From: an uncultured Flavobacteriaceae bacterium | GTDB taxonomy: Bacteria > Bacteroidota > Bacteroidia > Flavobacteriales > Flavobacteriaceae | Length of the DNA: 64,000 nt | Assembly: GCA_947500445.1 (NCBI GenBank) | Contig: CANMSB010000007.1 | Span: 1-64,000 of the forward strand | Reading direction: 5' to 3' | Shown here: piece by piece, positions 30,207 to 36,776 of the stretch | How the letters are laid out: the number at the start of each line of letters is the position of its first letter | How positions within the stretch are numbered: the first letter of the stretch is position 1 | Position numbers and translations under genes: made by a program | Notes under the pieces: generated by a model | What the model saw: the letters and a program-made list of their open reading frames with translations, nothing else | What the model was told of the DNA's origin: nothing | The model's database searches: none

Positions 30207-32273
30207 ATGAAAACGCTATGCCTATTCCTGGCCCTTTGCCCTTTATTGACTTTTGGCAACGATACAAAAACCCCCTCCGCAATAACCGCTGTAACCGTGT
30301 ACTTGAACGGTGCGAACATTACACGGACTGCACAGTGCTCCCTTCCGGAAGGAACCTCCGAGATTACACTGACAGGACTTTCTACTAAAATCGATGAAAG
30401 TAGCATCCAACTTAGCGGATTACGTTCGGTATCCATACTGTCCATGTCCTATGATCTCAATTTTAATCCTATCCCAATAGCCACTACCGTGTCCGACCCG
30501 TTATTGGACCGATTGGAACGGATAGCGCTTGAAATTGCCGCTTTAAAGAACAATATCGCCGGGTTGGAAGAGGAAGAACGCGTTATCCAGGCCAATCGGG
30601 AGGTGAGTGCACGTAATCAAGCGCTGAGCCTCGAAAAAATCAAAGAAATCGGCGCATACTACCGCCAGCGCATTACCGCCATCAAAAATGAGATTTTTAG
30701 CGCGAACCTATCGGTAAAAAAGCTGGACCAAGAGACCAGGGCACTTCAAAAACAACTGGCAGAATTAAACAATGCCCCAGAACAAGAACGCGGTGAAATC
30801 AACATCACCTTCGATGCCCCCGTTGCCACAAGCCTGGATCTGGAAATTTCCTATCAGGTACAAGGCGCCGGTTGGATTCCGAATTACGACATTACCTCCA
30901 ATAAGATCGATACCCCGTTATCCCTAAAATACAAAGCGCATGTATACCAAAAAACGGGAAACGACTGGGATAACGTCACCATCACCTTATCGACCGAAAA
31001 CCCCAACATTAATATGGCCAAGCCCAATTTGGGAGCCAAGTACCTCAACTTTACCAATGGCTATCAAAACACCGTTCCCCGGGCGGCGAAAAAGAAAAAA
31101 TACGTGTACAATCCTTCAGTAAGGAAGGTTACGGGAACCGTAGTAGACGAATCGGGCGCTCCTTTGCCCGGGGCGACCGTACTCATCAAAGGAACTTCGG
31201 AAGGTACCCAGACGGATTTTGACGGTCATTTTTCCCTATCCGTTCAAAAAGGGCAGGAACTGGTCGTCTCCTATATTGGTTTCCACAACGAGGAACTCCC
31301 CATTTATTCGTCCGTGATGAACATTCGGCTGGATGAAAGTGCCTCTCAGCTGGATGAGGTGATTGTTACCGGTTATGGCAAAAGCCAGAATGAAAGGTTC
31401 TCCAGTGTCGTAGGCTTCGAACAGGCATTGGCAGATAGGGTCTCTGGCGTAGCGATACGTGGAGCCAGTTCGGTTGGTAGGGAGCGAACCCCATTGTACG
31501 TTGTGGACGGTGTTGTTGTGGAAGGGTTTATGGAAGGGGACATCGATAGCGATGCCATACAGGCGGTGGAAACCCTAACGGGAGCCAATGCCAGGATCAT
31601 TTATGGCAGCCGTGGCAGCAATGGGGTGGTTGTCATCACCACCAAAAAAAGTACCGTTGAAGATACCCTTACGAATACCAAATTCGTAATAAAAAAGCCG
31701 TATAGCATCGCTTCGGACGGTGATATCGTTGCCATAGAAATCAACACCTTTCAACTCGATGCCAAATACGAGTATTTTGCGGCGCCTATCGTAAATGAGC
31801 ATGTATTTTTGACGAGCACCTTTCAAAACTGGGAAAAATACAAATTGTTGCCGGGAGAAGCAAGCATCTATTTTAAAGGTACCTATGCGGGAAAAACGAC
31901 CATTGACCCTTATACGACCAAAAAAGAGATGACCGTTTCGCTGGGAATAGAACAAAACATTACGGTAACACGAAAGCAGCGTAAAAATTTCAAGGCAAAA
32001 TCGTTTACCGGTAGTAATCGCATCCTGAATAGGGCTTATGACATTACCGTAAAAAACAATACGTCCGCCCCCATCGACCTCAAGTTGGTGGATCGCATCC
32101 CGATCTCTCAAAATAAGGACATCAAAGTAAGTGAAATAACGACCCATACGGCGGCATACGATACAAAAAAGGGACTTTTGGCCTGGAAACTGCAGCTATC
32201 GCCACAACAAAGTAAAACAGAAGGTTTTTCGTTTCAGGTGAAGTATCCAAAATACAAACGGATATCCATGTAA
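30207..32273 (+). CDS. DUF4139 (MuiA-like) protein with inserted carboxypeptidase-regulatory and TonB-plug domains
   Basis: This 688-aa exported protein begins MKTLCLFLALCPLLTFGN (signal peptide). Residues 25-90 resemble DUF4140, 95-190 are coiled coil, and DUF4139 runs from about 205 with LDLEISYQVQGAGWIPNYD. From about 305 a CarboxypepD_reg-like unit (VTGTVVDESGAPLPGATV) is inserted, then a SusC/TonB-plug-like unit (LDEVIVTGYGK, PLYVVDGVVVEG, GSRGSNGVVVITTKK) to about 482. After that DUF4139 resumes. MuiA-like proteins have been linked to mucoidy control; the inserted receptor parts usually belong to outer-membrane TonB receptors, but no 22-strand barrel is present here. This is a genuine domain insertion in the reading frame, not a frameshift. 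The role is unknown. Confidence 0.85.
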   Translation: MKTLCLFLALCPLLTFGNDTKTPSAITAVTVYLNGANITRTAQCSLPEGTSEITLTGLSTKIDESSIQLSGLRSVSILSMSYDLNFNPIPIATTVSDPLLDRLERIALEIAALKNNIAGLEEEERVIQANREVSARNQALSLEKIKEIGAYYRQRITAIKNEIFSANLSVKKLDQETRALQKQLAELNNAPEQERGEINITFDAPVATSLDLEISYQVQGAGWIPNYDITSNKIDTPLSLKYKAHVYQKTGNDWDNVTITLSTENPNINMAKPNLGAKYLNFTNGYQNTVPRAAKKKKYVYNPSVRKVTGTVVDESGAPLPGATVLIKGTSEGTQTDFDGHFSLSVQKGQELVVSYIGFHNEELPIYSSVMNIRLDESASQLDEVIVTGYGKSQNERFSSVVGFEQALADRVSGVAIRGASSVGRERTPLYVVDGVVVEGFMEGDIDSDAIQAVETLTGANARIIYGSRGSNGVVVITTKKSTVEDTLTNTKFVIKKPYSIASDGDIVAIEINTFQLDAKYEYFAAPIVNEHVFLTSTFQNWEKYKLLPGEASIYFKGTYAGKTTIDPYTTKKEMTVSLGIEQNITVTRKQRKNFKAKSFTGSNRILNRAYDITVKNNTSAPIDLKLVDRIPISQNKDIKVSEITTHTAAYDTKKGLLAWKLQLSPQQSKTEGFSFQVKYPKYKRISM

Positions 32274-32366: not shown

Positions 32367-33539
32367 CTACTTGAGATTGTTCAAAATGAAGTCAAGCGTT
32401 TTATCGGTATTCCGGTTTTCCTCAAAAGCGTGGTTGTTATGGGTAATGCGTAACGCCAATCCCTTATCGTATAGCGTATTAATGGCGTCCTCATAATCGA
32501 CCGATACCTTTCCGGTCAATAAATGGTCCATGGATCGTCCCTCCCGATAGCGTTTGTAAATGGTACGCAATCCGCTCAGGTATAGACGGTCCTTGGTAAA
32601 GCCCCCTCCCCTATGCGCCCTAAGGGTAATGGCAAAAGCATCGTTTCTGTTGAGCTTGTACTGGTTATGAATCAGATCAAAGGTCCCCCTAAAATCGTAT
32701 CCTTTGATCAGACTGTCCGATGCCAGTACGCGATACGCCAACTCTTTTAACCGTTTTAAGGTGAGCGCACCGCTCATGTATTCACTGAAAACGGCAAGCC
32801 CTTCCTGGGTTTCCACATTCTTGGGAAAACCGTTCGAAAAGACTTTGAGCGGTTGCAACATGCCATTGAAAGTGGTGACCAAGTGCACGCCAATTTCATG
32901 ATTTGCCAAGGTCAGCAATTGATTTTTACTGAATTTGGTGTTCTTTTTGATCAATAAGGTCTGTGAAACGTTGCTCACCATGGCATCTGCGGCCATATGG
33001 GTGGAAAACTTTACGTTGAGCGGAAAATCATATTGCTTTGAAAAATCTAAAAAATAGGACTTCGCCTCTTCCGGGCTAAAAATCTTGTCCATCTCCGGGG
33101 GATGCGGGGCATCGGCATAATGGAGGATAAAACGGGCGTTCTGTACGTCTTTTTCCGTAGGCGAGCCATACACCCTTAGGGAGTTGTAATAAAAGCGCTT
33201 GCCTTCCCCTATGGTCTCGATACACTGTACCATATTGGAATAATAGTATATGATATCCTGATAGAGCTGCCGAATGGCATCGTCCTGAACGCGTTCCAAA
33301 CGCTGCGAAAAGAACAGCCGATGCAACTTATAGGCATCAAACTTCAGTTTTGGATATCGAAACTCCGGGTTTTTGCTATACTTGGAGGCAAAAAATAGTT
33401 GCTTTTGCTTTTCGGTATTCAAGGGGTTTACATAGCTGAGCAATTCTATTTTCTTGACCAAACGGTCCAGGTTATGGTCAATATCGAACAGTTCGGTATA
33501 TGCTCCCTGTAAATCGGTTTGTTGTTCGGTGATCATCAT
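32367..33539 (-). CDS. DUF1704/QEGLA-motif metallopeptidase
   Basis: This 390-aa protein is of the family often named 'flavohemoglobin expression-modulating QEGLA motif'. It carries an HExxxH-type zinc site, NHEIGVH (His214, Glu215, His219), and the QEGLA motif (245-249). The family includes vertebrate MATCAP (KIAA0895L), a carboxypeptidase that removes the C-terminal Tyr of alpha-tubulin, so a peptide or C-terminal peptidase role is plausible. The start codon overlaps the stop of the amidohydrolase gene by four bases. It is the last gene of the cassette. Confidence 0.85.
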   Translation of the reverse strand: MMITEQQTDLQGAYTELFDIDHNLDRLVKKIELLSYVNPLNTEKQKQLFFASKYSKNPEFRYPKLKFDAYKLHRLFFSQRLERVQDDAIRQLYQDIIYYYSNMVQCIETIGEGKRFYYNSLRVYGSPTEKDVQNARFILHYADAPHPPEMDKIFSPEEAKSYFLDFSKQYDFPLNVKFSTHMAADAMVSNVSQTLLIKKNTKFSKNQLLTLANHEIGVHLVTTFNGMLQPLKVFSNGFPKNVETQEGLAVFSEYMSGALTLKRLKELAYRVLASDSLIKGYDFRGTFDLIHNQYKLNRNDAFAITLRAHRGGGFTKDRLYLSGLRTIYKRYREGRSMDHLLTGKVSVDYEDAINTLYDKGLALRITHNNHAFEENRNTDKTLDFILNNLK

Positions 33540-34363
33540 CCTTTTTTACTCAAGAATTCGTCGACTTGCCTAGGCATTGCGTCCATAAAATATGAGGCAA
33601 CGCTACGGACCACCTCCGGATATATCATCCCCGACAACTCATCGCAATAAATTTTGGAAATTTCCGTAGCGAGTACCAACGTATTCTCAAAGGTATGGGT
33701 TATGTATTTTAGAAAGTAACCGTTCCCTTGAAAGGTATCATTGATTTTTGAGGTGGAAACGATACCGTTCGGCAAGTTCATTTCCCCAAGCTGTCGGCGC
33801 CACGATTCTGCAAGCGCGCCAAATCTTTTTTCGTCGATATTCGCGGTACCGAGGTTCCATACCGGAACTTCCCGTTCCCATCGCCTGTAATTGTAGCTGT
33901 GCATATCAAAAACCAGTGCCGTTCCGTGTATTTTTTCGATCTGGCCGACCAAAGCACGGACCACCCGGTAAAAATTGTTGTGTTTTTTAAGACTCAATTC
34001 CCGTTCCGTATCGGGCAAGGGAACTTTCCAAAGCGTTTTGCCCCAGGCATCGGTATACACGGCGGCCTCGGGCGCACGGTTCAGGTCATACTCGAACCGG
34101 CTGTCCCTCCCCGCGATGACTATGGGGTGGTCCTGTACCATTTCCCTTGTACATGGGTCCTCTTCGTACCATCGTTCATATTCGGTATGGGTACAGTTTT
34201 CCCAAAGCGATTTTCGAAACTGGTGTCCATCGTGCACCGCGGCGCAGATATAGGGAGCGTACGAATCGATTTTCAAGCTAAAGGAATAGTCCTCGGCAAC
34301 GGCCTCGAAGGCCTCCTGCCTTTCTATCTTCTCAATAATATGGGAAACGGAAAGTTTAAGCAT
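33536..34363 (-). CDS. N-formylglutamate amidohydrolase-like enzyme
   Basis: This 275-aa enzyme has the family landmarks CAAVHDGHQF, EEDPCTREM and AGRDSRFEYDLNRAPE, and a later VFDMHSYN. The family is a zinc amidohydrolase that cleaves acyl-Glu substrates. It overlaps the ATP-grasp stop by eight bases and the metallopeptidase start by four bases, so all three are translationally coupled. The substrate here is unlikely to be histidine-pathway N-formylglutamate, as no hut genes are present. Confidence 0.88.
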   Translation of the reverse strand: MLKLSVSHIIEKIERQEAFEAVAEDYSFSLKIDSYAPYICAAVHDGHQFRKSLWENCTHTEYERWYEEDPCTREMVQDHPIVIAGRDSRFEYDLNRAPEAAVYTDAWGKTLWKVPLPDTERELSLKKHNNFYRVVRALVGQIEKIHGTALVFDMHSYNYRRWEREVPVWNLGTANIDEKRFGALAESWRRQLGEMNLPNGIVSTSKINDTFQGNGYFLKYITHTFENTLVLATEISKIYCDELSGMIYPEVVRSVASYFMDAMPRQVDEFLSKKG

Positions 34364-35387
34364 TTTCTACCTCGTCTCGTAATCGGGTGCGCCGTTGAAA
34401 AGCCTGTAATTGGTCAAGCACCTTGCTCTCCACAAAATCGATTACCTTCGATTGTAGTTTGGCCTTGTACACCTTGTTCATATAGGTTATTCCTCCTGGC
34501 GACATCACATTGACCTCCACTAGCTTTCCGCCTATGACGTCGATTCCCACAAAGTAGAGCCCGTCCTTCACCAACTTCGGTCCGATCTGCTTGCACAGTG
34601 CCTTTTCCTGTTTCGTCAAATGGTGCTTGGCCACTGATCCACCGGCGGACACATTACTTCGGTGATCGTCCGATCCCGGCACCCGTTTCATGGCTCCGAT
34701 CGGTTCGCCATTCAACAATAATATACGAACATCACCCTGATCCGCACCTTCAATGTATTCTTGAAGTATTACATAGTTAGAACTTCCGTCAGAGTTGGTT
34801 ACGTAAAAATCTAATAATGATTTAATATTACTCATTGCCGATTTCTCGATTAGGATTACCCCGGATCCCCCAAAACCGTTCAAGGGCTTCAATATCATTT
34901 TATCGGCAGAGGACTCCTTGATTTGTTTCAACAAATACCCCTTATTTTTGGAAACATGGGTGGTCGGGATAATGTTGCTATGTGAATCCCCAAATGCTGC
35001 GGTATACAATTTGTTATTGGCTTCACGAATGCCTTGCAGCGAGTTAACGATGAACACATCATCTTTTACGGAATCCAGAAAATTCAGCATGATCGGGTCC
35101 AAAGGTGGATTGGCCCGCATAAAAATCACATCAAAACCGGCCAGGGGAAGCATTTCCTCCCGCACCTTCGCCTGTTTGTAAAAGGTCTTCAAATTGCTCG
35201 GAACCTTCTCCATACGGCCGATAACGGTACAAAAAGCATTGGTAACGCTGTTGCGGATGGTAAGGTTGGCCGGGGTACAGATGGCTACGCCATGCTGTCT
35301 TTTCACACATTCGTGTATTAGCGCCAAACTGGTATCATTCTCAGCGTCTATTTCCTCCCAAGGGTACATTAAAAAACAAATATTCAT
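34356..35387 (-). CDS. ATP-grasp ligase, glutathione-synthetase (GshB)-like
   Basis: This 343-aa ATP-grasp protein has the nucleotide-binding block MILKPLNGFGGSGVILIEK and metal-binding VGIDVIGGKLVEVNVMSPG near the C-terminus. It resembles GshB and RimK-type amino-acid or peptide ligases. No gamma-glutamylcysteine ligase is in the window, so it may join a different amino acid or peptide. It is 60 bases after the symporter gene and overlaps the amidohydrolase by eight bases. Confidence 0.85.
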   Translation of the reverse strand: MNICFLMYPWEEIDAENDTSLALIHECVKRQHGVAICTPANLTIRNSVTNAFCTVIGRMEKVPSNLKTFYKQAKVREEMLPLAGFDVIFMRANPPLDPIMLNFLDSVKDDVFIVNSLQGIREANNKLYTAAFGDSHSNIIPTTHVSKNKGYLLKQIKESSADKMILKPLNGFGGSGVILIEKSAMSNIKSLLDFYVTNSDGSSNYVILQEYIEGADQGDVRILLLNGEPIGAMKRVPGSDDHRSNVSAGGSVAKHHLTKQEKALCKQIGPKLVKDGLYFVGIDVIGGKLVEVNVMSPGGITYMNKVYKAKLQSKVIDFVESKVLDQLQAFQRRTRLRDEVENA

Positions 35388-35447
35388 ATGCTTCCGTTTA
35401 AAAATAATATCAAAGGCCTGATCGACAATGCGCCATTTGAAAACGTG

Positions 35448-36776
35448 TTACCGCACTTCTTCTAAATGGTCGTCCCATTCTTTTGGTTTTGGATCTCCTA
35501 ACTTTCCTACCGATTTTGCAACGATCATTGAAACCGTGGCATCCCCGGTAACATTGACTACGGTCCGGCACATATCCAAGGGACGGTCTACGGCAAAGAT
35601 CAATGCCAATGCGATAGGATACAGTTCCGGAGGAAAACCGATGGATTCCAATACAATGACCAACATGACCATTCCGGCCCCGGGAACTGCCGCGGAACCG
35701 ATAGAGGCCAATAGGGCCGTTAATACGATGATGAGCTGATTACTGAACACCAGTCCCTCCGGCCACAACACTTGCATGGCGAAAACTGCCGCAACACCTT
35801 GGTACAAGCTTGTACCATCCATATTAATGGTAGCGCCGACGGGCAAAACAAAACTGGACACCTCCTTATCCACCCCGATATGTTCTTCTACCCTTTCCAT
35901 GGTAACGGGCAAGGTAGCGGCACTCGAACTTGTTGAAAAAGCGAGCAATTGTGCCGGACTGATCTGTTTCAGGAACCACAAGGGATTTTTTCCCGTATAT
36001 AAGGATACCAAAACGGCATAAAACACGATCATCAAGAGCAGCCCCAGCACCACTACCCCAGCATATTTCAATAAGGCCACCAGAAGATCCGGGTCTCCCG
36101 AGGAGGATACCACATTGGCCAACAAGGCAAAGACGGCATAAGGCGCCGACAACATGATGAGGTCGACCATTTTGAGCACCACCTCGTTCAGGGAATCAAA
36201 AAAGGACTTTAACGGACGGGCTTTCTCTTCTCCCACCAGCAGCATTGATATGCCTAAAAAGATGGTAAAGAATATAACTTGCAGCATTAATTTATTATCG
36301 CTCATGGCCGCGACCGCATTGTCCGGGACCATATCCTTTAAAAACTGTAGGGGACCGTTGTTCTTTTGTTTCAACGCCTCGTCCAGCTTATCGGTGACCC
36401 CACTGTCATTGGCATAGGTCTGGGATAATTTTTCAATGGTTTCGGCATCGATACCGTTACCGGGCTGGAGCGTGTTTACCAGAACCAGGCCAACGGAAAT
36501 GGCCACCACGGTAGTCAGCACGTAAATGCCAATGGTTCGCAAACCTATTTTTCGAAACTTGGAGATGTCCTTAAGATCTGATATTCCCTTGATCAAGGAA
36601 GCCAGAATTAACGGTACCGCTATCAGTTTTAGCAGTTTCACGAAAATAGCGCCGAAGGGTTCGATCCAATTGGCGACAAACGTTTTCCCTCCATCGAAAT
36701 ACGTCATGGCAAAGCCAAAAACGAGCCCCAACAGCATTCCGATCAAGATTTTCCAATGTAACGCCAATTTACCCAT
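35448..36776 (-). CDS. Dicarboxylate/amino-acid:cation symporter (GltP/DctA family)
   Basis: This 442-aa transporter has the two re-entrant loops and serine-rich tip STSSSAATLPVT (near 290) and the late signature MDGTSLYQGVAAVFAMQ. Hydrophobic helices fit the family eight-helix design. It moves glutamate, aspartate or C4-dicarboxylates with Na+ or H+. It lies 60 bases upstream of the ATP-grasp gene and probably opens the four-gene cassette, supplying glutamate or another acidic amino acid. Confidence 0.9.
   Translation of the reverse strand: MGKLALHWKILIGMLLGLVFGFAMTYFDGGKTFVANWIEPFGAIFVKLLKLIAVPLILASLIKGISDLKDISKFRKIGLRTIGIYVLTTVVAISVGLVLVNTLQPGNGIDAETIEKLSQTYANDSGVTDKLDEALKQKNNGPLQFLKDMVPDNAVAAMSDNKLMLQVIFFTIFLGISMLLVGEEKARPLKSFFDSLNEVVLKMVDLIMLSAPYAVFALLANVVSSSGDPDLLVALLKYAGVVVLGLLLMIVFYAVLVSLYTGKNPLWFLKQISPAQLLAFSTSSSAATLPVTMERVEEHIGVDKEVSSFVLPVGATINMDGTSLYQGVAAVFAMQVLWPEGLVFSNQLIIVLTALLASIGSAAVPGAGMVMLVIVLESIGFPPELYPIALALIFAVDRPLDMCRTVVNVTGDATVSMIVAKSVGKLGDPKPKEWDDHLEEVR

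Follow-up and report, generated by a model that had tools for sequence, protein, structure and literature searches.

The 64,000-nucleotide stretch analyzed here (the window; positions 1 to 64,000 of contig CANMSB010000007.1, assembly GCA_947500445.1, from an uncultured Flavobacteriaceae bacterium) carries a cassette of three overlapping genes. These encode an ATP-grasp ligase resembling glutathione synthetase (GshB), a hydrolase with a predicted N-formylglutamate amidohydrolase fold (NFGA) and a metallopeptidase of the QEGLA family. Genome comparison confirmed that the three genes form a recurrent unit beyond chance neighborhood, in which one enzyme probably joins an amino acid to a peptide-like molecule and the other two probably dismantle the product. 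The reading that we prefer, with a probability of about 45%, is an intracellular make-and-break system for a small peptide-like metabolite other than glutathione.

Concerning co-occurrence, the QEGLA family (PF08014) was detected in 10 of 148 Bacteroidota genomes, and the ligase subfamily in exactly these 10, the remaining 138 having neither (called at NF009110 E ≤ 1e-60; nine of the 10 exceed the curated cut-off and G002 reaches 396.5 of 408 bits). In each of these genomes the two genes are no more than about 3.5 kb apart. Under independence of the genomes, an assumption that does not hold, the chance of such joint occurrence would be 1e-15. The NFGA family (PF05013) is present in 22 of the 148 genomes, including nine of the 10 with the cassette; the tenth (G053, locus L019) has no NFGA match and bears an AstE/AspA-type hydrolase after the ligase. 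Handles of the form L### and G### denote loci and genomes, respectively, G000 being the genome that carries the window. We also compared 80 named loci, chosen as the best 80 of at least 571 that were confirmed. By title or origin these belong to the Flavobacteriaceae or Bacteroidota, while other phyla are represented by a few plasmid records. The order ligase, NFGA, QEGLA on one strand was found in 72 of the 80 and NFGA in 73; the exceptions are seven loci with neither ligase nor NFGA, and L110, which lacks the ligase and lies at a contig end. Gene spacing, measured in 71 loci, shows NFGA and QEGLA overlapping or directly adjoining in most cases, as do ligase and NFGA where no gene is inserted. 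A chance neighborhood was rejected on the shared 10 of 148 genomes and the single order at 72 loci. The original prediction, made from the letters of the window, had described three overlapping genes with one amide-making and two amide-breaking enzymes and had looked to co-occurrence in other genomes; the reading frames are as it stated, and the genes do travel together. L017 (G088) and L129 (G157) are apparently one genome, with identical ligase and coordinates. The ligase and NFGA of L080 were located by tblastn, and the genes of L047 (Shinella) follow the record's own annotation. A literature search limited to open-licence papers led to no earlier description of the cassette. It may nevertheless have been described in print, and the work of Iyer et al. 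on ATP-grasp amidoligase operons, from 2009, would be the likeliest earlier mention.

In the window, the cassette follows a sodium:dicarboxylate (SDF) symporter gene, and the four genes run in one direction on the minus strand from 36776 to 32367 (Table 1). The overlap amounts to 8 bases between ligase and NFGA and to 4 between NFGA and QEGLA, with a gap of 60 bases between symporter and ligase. No signal peptide is obvious by eye at the start of the ligase, NFGA or QEGLA, and all three are therefore taken as cytosolic. A promoter and terminator scan gave sites no more numerous than in shuffled sequence.

Table 1. Genes of the cassette and its upstream neighbor, with the evidence for each assignment.
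Feature	Position	Strand	Basis
GshB-like ATP-grasp ligase, NF009110/PRK12458 subfamily ("type 1" cassette ligase), 343 aa	34356..35387	-	NF009110, PF02951+PF02955, 1gsa, loop SPGG
N-formylglutamate-amidohydrolase-fold hydrolase (NFGA), HutG-distant, 275 aa	33536..34363	-	PF05013, predicted fold, conserved residues
QEGLA/MATCAP-family metallopeptidase, HEIGVH ... QEGLA, 390 aa	32367..33539	-	PF08014, invariant motif residues, predicted fold
Sodium:dicarboxylate (SDF) symporter, 442 aa, frequent upstream neighbor, not core	35448..36776	-	PF00375 412 bits

The ligase harbors both prokaryotic glutathione-synthetase domains, PF02951 (86 bits) and PF02955 (183 bits). The Pfam scan returned GSH-S_ATP, GSH-S_N, RimK and ATP-grasp_3 only, with no match to the TTL domain. 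Its best NCBI model is the "glutathione synthetase" subfamily NF009110 (469.5 bits, cut-off 408), it falls under the cut-off of TIGR01380 (237.4 vs. 299.05 bits), and its nearest solved sequence in the PDB is GshB 1gsa (E-value = 1.3e-40). At the position of the GshB loop TSPT, the aligned window ligase reads SPGG. Specifically, [ST]PG[GA] occurs in all 20 cassette ligases examined, against T[SA]PT in four GshB-type comparison proteins; treating this loop as diagnostic of GshB is a comparison of our own. The cassette ligases form a branch separate from GshB with 97% SH-aLRT, in a tree with only four comparison proteins, which sit on long branches, built without L047 and Paracoccus L145 and with an L139 row over-long at its start. 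A type 2 ligase, about 30% identical to the type 1 of the window, was also recognized, and the S. chiapasense ligase (loop TPGA) groups with it. The Photobacterium ligase (L049, 6116-7144) shares 60% identity with that of the window across phyla, which hints at horizontal transfer.

NFGA matches PF05013 with 55.3 bits (cut-off 28.9), no NCBIfam family at E ≤ 1e-3 and nothing in the PDB sequence search. Its AlphaFold (AF2) model (pLDDT 90.8) gave two PDB matches with TM 0.63-0.68 by query length, 2q7s (the best, TM 0.68; titled N-formylglutamate amidohydrolase in the PDB) and 2odf. Residues H44, E67, E68, D153 and E234 are invariant in 13 of 13 cassette sequences and H155 in 12, and all six are invariant in a 29-row alignment. 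PF05013 scores are 43-71 bits in nine cassette genomes, and a second copy at another place in G118 reaches 204. Identity with HutG was rejected, given the missing NCBIfam match and a score far under that of the second G118 copy. The neighbors at the locus (symporter, ligase, QEGLA) offer no context of histidine use, hut genes elsewhere in the genome not having been searched for. In L127 (8149-8981) NFGA is split into reading frames of 133 and 124 aa, with ligase and QEGLA intact.

QEGLA scores 351.4 bits with PF08014 (MATCAP; curated cut-off 27) and stays under the cut-off of the NCBIfam QEGLA model TIGR02421 (307.9 vs. 338.65). H214, E215, H219, Q245 and E246 are invariant both in 13 sequences and in 29. 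Human MATCAP was matched in the PDB sequence search (E-value = 1.6e-4), and the AF2 model (pLDDT 88.7) had human MATCAP structures 7z5g/7z6s as its top five PDB matches (E-value 9e-9 to 4e-8). Only MATCAP matched below E 1e-3, followed by M32 carboxypeptidases (Foldseek E-value 1e-3 to 4e-3). Profile and predicted fold both place QEGLA in the MATCAP family as a bacterial branch, and the kinship suspected in the original prediction stands.

Loss of genes separates the three enzymes. In seven Flavobacteriaceae loci (L055, L071, L076, L077, L078, L086, L101), the symporter is followed by QEGLA with neither ligase nor NFGA, and searches for remnants of the two gave chance-level scraps only at E 10. 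Elsewhere in these genomes, a ligase over the NF009110 cut-off was found in none of the seven (controls 3/3 positive; best other match 99.5 bits, RimK-like) and the cassette NFGA likewise in none (controls 4/4 positive). The QEGLA tree requires five changes, at least three of which starred branches make unavoidable, with L086 and L101 on long branches, and the QEGLA motifs are kept in all seven, L086 reading QEGMA. From this joint loss it follows that NFGA is tied to the ligase and that QEGLA is viable without both, which suggests that NFGA acts on the product or precursor of the ligase and that QEGLA has a wider use. In Vibrio sp. HDW18, no ligase was found in a 17-kb stretch, and the NFGA domain of its fused protein has Tyr for H155. 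Divergent QEGLA proteins of 426 and 449 aa were seen in Pseudoalteromonas (L138, 6959-8239; L141, 5737-7086), one of them after a redoxin gene.

Fusions and rearrangements were also detected. NFGA and QEGLA form a single reading frame in three loci (L013, Vibrio L045, Photobacterium L049). A long QEGLA of 609-622 aa is encoded in L014, L015, L016, L018, L019 and L046, and one of 631 aa, as annotated, in L047; its N-terminal 230 aa are related to NFGA in profile comparison (probability 95%, E-value = 3.4e-8), with the HDGH and SRFE.DLNR parts missing. L014 and L015 have two ligases each, a type 1 that precedes NFGA and a type 2 that follows QEGLA, and the order NFGA, long QEGLA, ligase is found in Aminobacter, Shinella and a Roseateles-labelled record. 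The S. meliloti R28 record has annotated genes for NFGA and QEGLA and none in the gap that follows. A DUF413 (maoP) gene adjoins the cassette or fused hydrolase in Photobacterium (L049, 5655-5996) and Vibrio (L045, 6687-7046). On the far side of this gene stands a LysR regulator, which the annotation names in L045 and which was recognized by eye in L049. The Desulfocapsa sulfexigens plasmid (L146) bears a different GshB-like cluster, comprising a ligase, a C45 peptidase, a radical SAM protein and a gamma-glutamyl-gamma-aminobutyrate hydrolase family protein.

Several genes accompany the cassette less regularly. The symporter, whose best NCBIfam model is GltP (259 bits, under the cut-off of 638), is found no farther than 9 kb from QEGLA in 68 of the 80 loci. 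Of the seven Aquimarina loci whose flanks are intact, six lack it, and in the annotated Proteobacteria loci no SDF-family symporter is annotated beside the cassette. The original prediction had counted it in: the gene does stand upstream in the window, but as a core member it was rejected on these counts. Across the 80 loci no small gene of at least 60 aa recurs in the same-strand run apart from lineage-bound inserts, so that a linked small acceptor protein of that size was rejected; the remark that no obvious acceptor gene is present holds, and the cassette genes of the window overlap. Among the inserts, a rhodanese-family sulfurtransferase gene lies between ligase and NFGA in 16 of the 80 loci (including L129, 6978-8143; L098-L100; L114; L122), and 14 of the 16 fall in one clade of 17 QEGLA rows. 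A partner of about 110 aa with no Pfam match accompanies the rhodanese in 11 loci and is fused with it in L114 and L122. A family of proteins of 262-386 aa is encoded upstream of the ligase in L102, L109, L111, L115, L118, L119, L124 and L125, the L118 member having no Pfam match; the 276-aa frame at this position in L126 is not a rhodanese. In 56 of the 80 loci, a gene for a DCC1 thiol-disulfide oxidoreductase stands no more than 9 kb from QEGLA, likely through plain synteny. Next to the cassette in the window, a MuiA-like DUF4140/DUF4139 protein with a CarboxypepD_reg_2 match is encoded at 30207-32273 (+), with a SusC/RagA-signature-like segment nested at about residues 308-480.

Is the product glutathione? 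In profile searches, PF04107 (GCS2) was absent from G000 and from nine of the 10 cassette genomes, and present in four of 10 cassette-free ones. PF04262 was found under none of 20 handles, G000 included (about 19 genomes, L017 and L129 being one, whose ligase thus stands twice in the ligase tree). The PF08886 (GshA) search carries no information, as none of its controls gave a match. BshC, of bacillithiol synthesis, is present in all 20 genomes, cassette or not. S. meliloti 2011 has a GshB-like gene beside QEGLA on its 1.68-Mb replicon, which from its size we take to be pSymB. In the available part of the report on this strain, its chromosomal gshB mutant was without GSH by high-performance liquid chromatography (PMC7063052). 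Because the two glutamate-cysteine ligase families are missing, BshC is present and the loop is unlike that of GshB, the ligase is probably not a glutathione synthetase, and the cassette genes appear to be labelled glutathione genes without good reason. A glutathione-only ligase, the outcome on which the original prediction would have fallen, is in this light unlikely.

Enzymes of the GshB type extend a C-terminal carboxylate, and those of the MATCAP and M32 families take the last residue off a C-terminus. NFGA-type enzymes hydrolyze an amide bond on glutamate, and those members of the fold with known function act on small N-acyl amino acids. From these family chemistries, the simplest joint reading is therefore a small intracellular peptide-like substrate that the ligase builds and the hydrolases undo. 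The ligase would activate with ATP the C-terminal carboxylate of a small acceptor and join an amino acid to it as GshB does, the acceptor being a dipeptide or N-acyl amino acid, probably glutamate-like. QEGLA, as a MATCAP/M32-like zinc carboxypeptidase, would take the C-terminal residue off again, and NFGA, kept only alongside the ligase, would hydrolyze the amide on the glutamate-like residue (an N-acyl cap). The two hydrolases would act side by side, fused in some species, and the SDF symporter, where present, could supply or recover the acidic amino acid. The comparison itself shows the gene unit, the fusions, the joint loss, the conservation of residues of catalytic type and, as predictions, the folds. 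We infer the direction of the reactions, the shared substrate, its glutamate content and its being a small molecule and not a protein.

Two published studies add support to the preferred reading; COG3930, named in one of them, is presumably QEGLA. In the accessible part of a V. vulnificus comparison, VV2_1203 (COG3930) and the "glutathione synthetase" VV2_1204 are both clade-2-specific (PMC3091676). Likewise, the available text on Photobacterium damselae reports that at 1% vs. 3% NaCl "GshB" RS17020 rose 38-fold, the QEGLA gene RS17025 27.5-fold and RimK 52-fold, and its authors read RS17020 as a glutathione synthetase (PMC10308900). A number of observations speak against the reading of a small non-glutathione metabolite. 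Both Photobacterium genes rise at low salt, a poor fit to a simple high-salt osmolyte, and the V. vulnificus study has a second clade-2-specific COG3930 gene, VV1_0515, for which it lists no neighboring ligase (PMC3091676). The ligase scores over the "glutathione synthase" equivalog PRK05246 (285.1 vs. 272 bits), the cassette genome G130 has a GCS2-family ligase, and the S. meliloti evidence concerns a type 2 ligase (about 30% identical), the window having type 1. Finally, QEGLA persists without ligase and NFGA in seven of the 80 loci, and without either in two Pseudoalteromonas records, and must therefore have some use of its own.

These observations bear on the competing explanations too. 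The ligase could be a true GshB fed by an unrecognized glutamate-cysteine ligase, with the hydrolases recycling glutathione or a close thiol tripeptide; the GshB domains, the PRK05246 score, the rhodanese inserts and the DCC1 neighbor would fit. We consider this quite improbable, given the missing PF04107 and PF04262, the ubiquitous BshC, the loop that differs in every cassette ligase examined, and the S. meliloti mutant, which in the available part of its report lacked GSH (PMC7063052) despite a cassette ligase, while the rhodanese inserts cluster in one clade and DCC1 is likely syntenic. Catabolic salvage, with QEGLA and NFGA degrading acidic peptides or N-acyl amino acids imported by the symporter and the ligase as a side activity, would explain why seven Flavobacteriaceae loci retain symporter and QEGLA only. 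In all seven, though, NFGA has gone with the ligase and was not retained with QEGLA, and the outside-family loci L013, L016, L018, L046, L047, L049 and L139 show no symporter beside the cassette, by search or annotation, which makes salvage a rather remote prospect.

Reversible tailing of a protein, as on tubulin, was the cycle suggested by the original prediction: the ligase would attach an amino acid to the C-terminus of a bacterial protein encoded elsewhere, and QEGLA would remove it. QEGLA does belong with MATCAP by family, and human TMCP enzymes are described as trimming tubulin tails in the available part of one report (PMC10499314). The ligase, on the other hand, is of the GshB type, has GSH-S_N at its N-terminus and matched no tubulin ligase; the 80 loci showed no conserved small gene of at least 60 aa, and the known enzymes of the NFGA fold handle small N-acyl amino acids. 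This part of the prediction gains no support, and tailing appears very improbable. An N-acyl dipeptide cycle is a sharper form of our preferred explanation: the ATP-grasp enzyme would make N-acyl-aa1-aa2, QEGLA would free aa2, NFGA would deacylate aa1 and SDF would recover the acidic amino acid. For each step there is a family of matching chemistry (GshB/RimK-type ligase, carboxypeptidase-like fold, N-formylglutamate-hydrolase family, SDF), and the NFGA-less L019 has its AstE/AspA-type enzyme after the ligase. No acyltransferase was seen recurring in the operon, and SDF is missing from most Aquimarina loci and from the annotated Proteobacteria cassettes; in this exact form the cycle is unlikely, and its likeness to mammalian N-acetylaspartylglutamate metabolism is an analogy that claims no membership. 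A search of open-licence papers on RIMKLA and N-acetylaspartylglutamate gave nothing relevant.

Returning to the small-metabolite reading, the QEGLA family gains a concrete bacterial setting, its characterized members in the open-licence literature searched being tubulin-trimming enzymes only. The label "glutathione synthase" is called into question as well, as carried over to the 38-fold induction in the available part of the transcriptome study (PMC10308900). More speculatively, and with considerable doubt on our side, the cassette may make a peptide metabolite or cofactor, as yet undescribed, that is widespread in Bacteroidota and Proteobacteria, its C-terminal residue put on by the GshB-like ligase and taken off by the bacterial MATCAP-family enzyme; the eukaryotic tubulin detyrosinase would then descend from such a small-peptide carboxypeptidase. 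If true, the new metabolite would be common to marine flavobacteria, Photobacterium and rhizobia.

Among known systems, the N-acetylaspartylglutamate cycle and the NAGGN peptide-osmolyte systems combine an ATP-grasp ligase with a peptidase or deacylase of a small N-acyl peptide. They employ other enzyme families, and no acyltransferase or amidotransferase was seen with our cassette. GshB (1gsa, PRK05246/TIGR01380) shares with the cassette ligase both domains, about 30% identity, ATP-grasp chemistry and the arginine of the MRxxPP stretch. It differs in branch, in its T[SA]PT instead of [ST]PG[GA] loop and in the best fit of the cassette ligase to NF009110, and the genome of the window lacks the two glutamate-cysteine ligase families. 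HutG (PF05013; 2q7s, 2odf) resembles NFGA in Pfam family, predicted fold and conserved His/Glu/Asp residues, but the cassette NFGA has a low PF05013 score and no NCBIfam match and adjoins ligase and QEGLA. The M32 carboxypeptidases (5e3x, 3hq2, 3hoa) are the nearest folds to the QEGLA model after MATCAP; they are larger proteins, and QEGLA has no sequence-family match to M32. Finally, MATCAP/TMCP (PF08014) shares with QEGLA the Pfam family, the HExxxH motif with a downstream glutamate and, as modelled, a related fold (7z5g/7z6s, TM 0.53-0.59 by query length). QEGLA, a putative peptidase, differs in its identity of about 20%, its bacterial host and its place beside a ligase and an amidohydrolase, and several of its relatives bear an extra NFGA-like domain.

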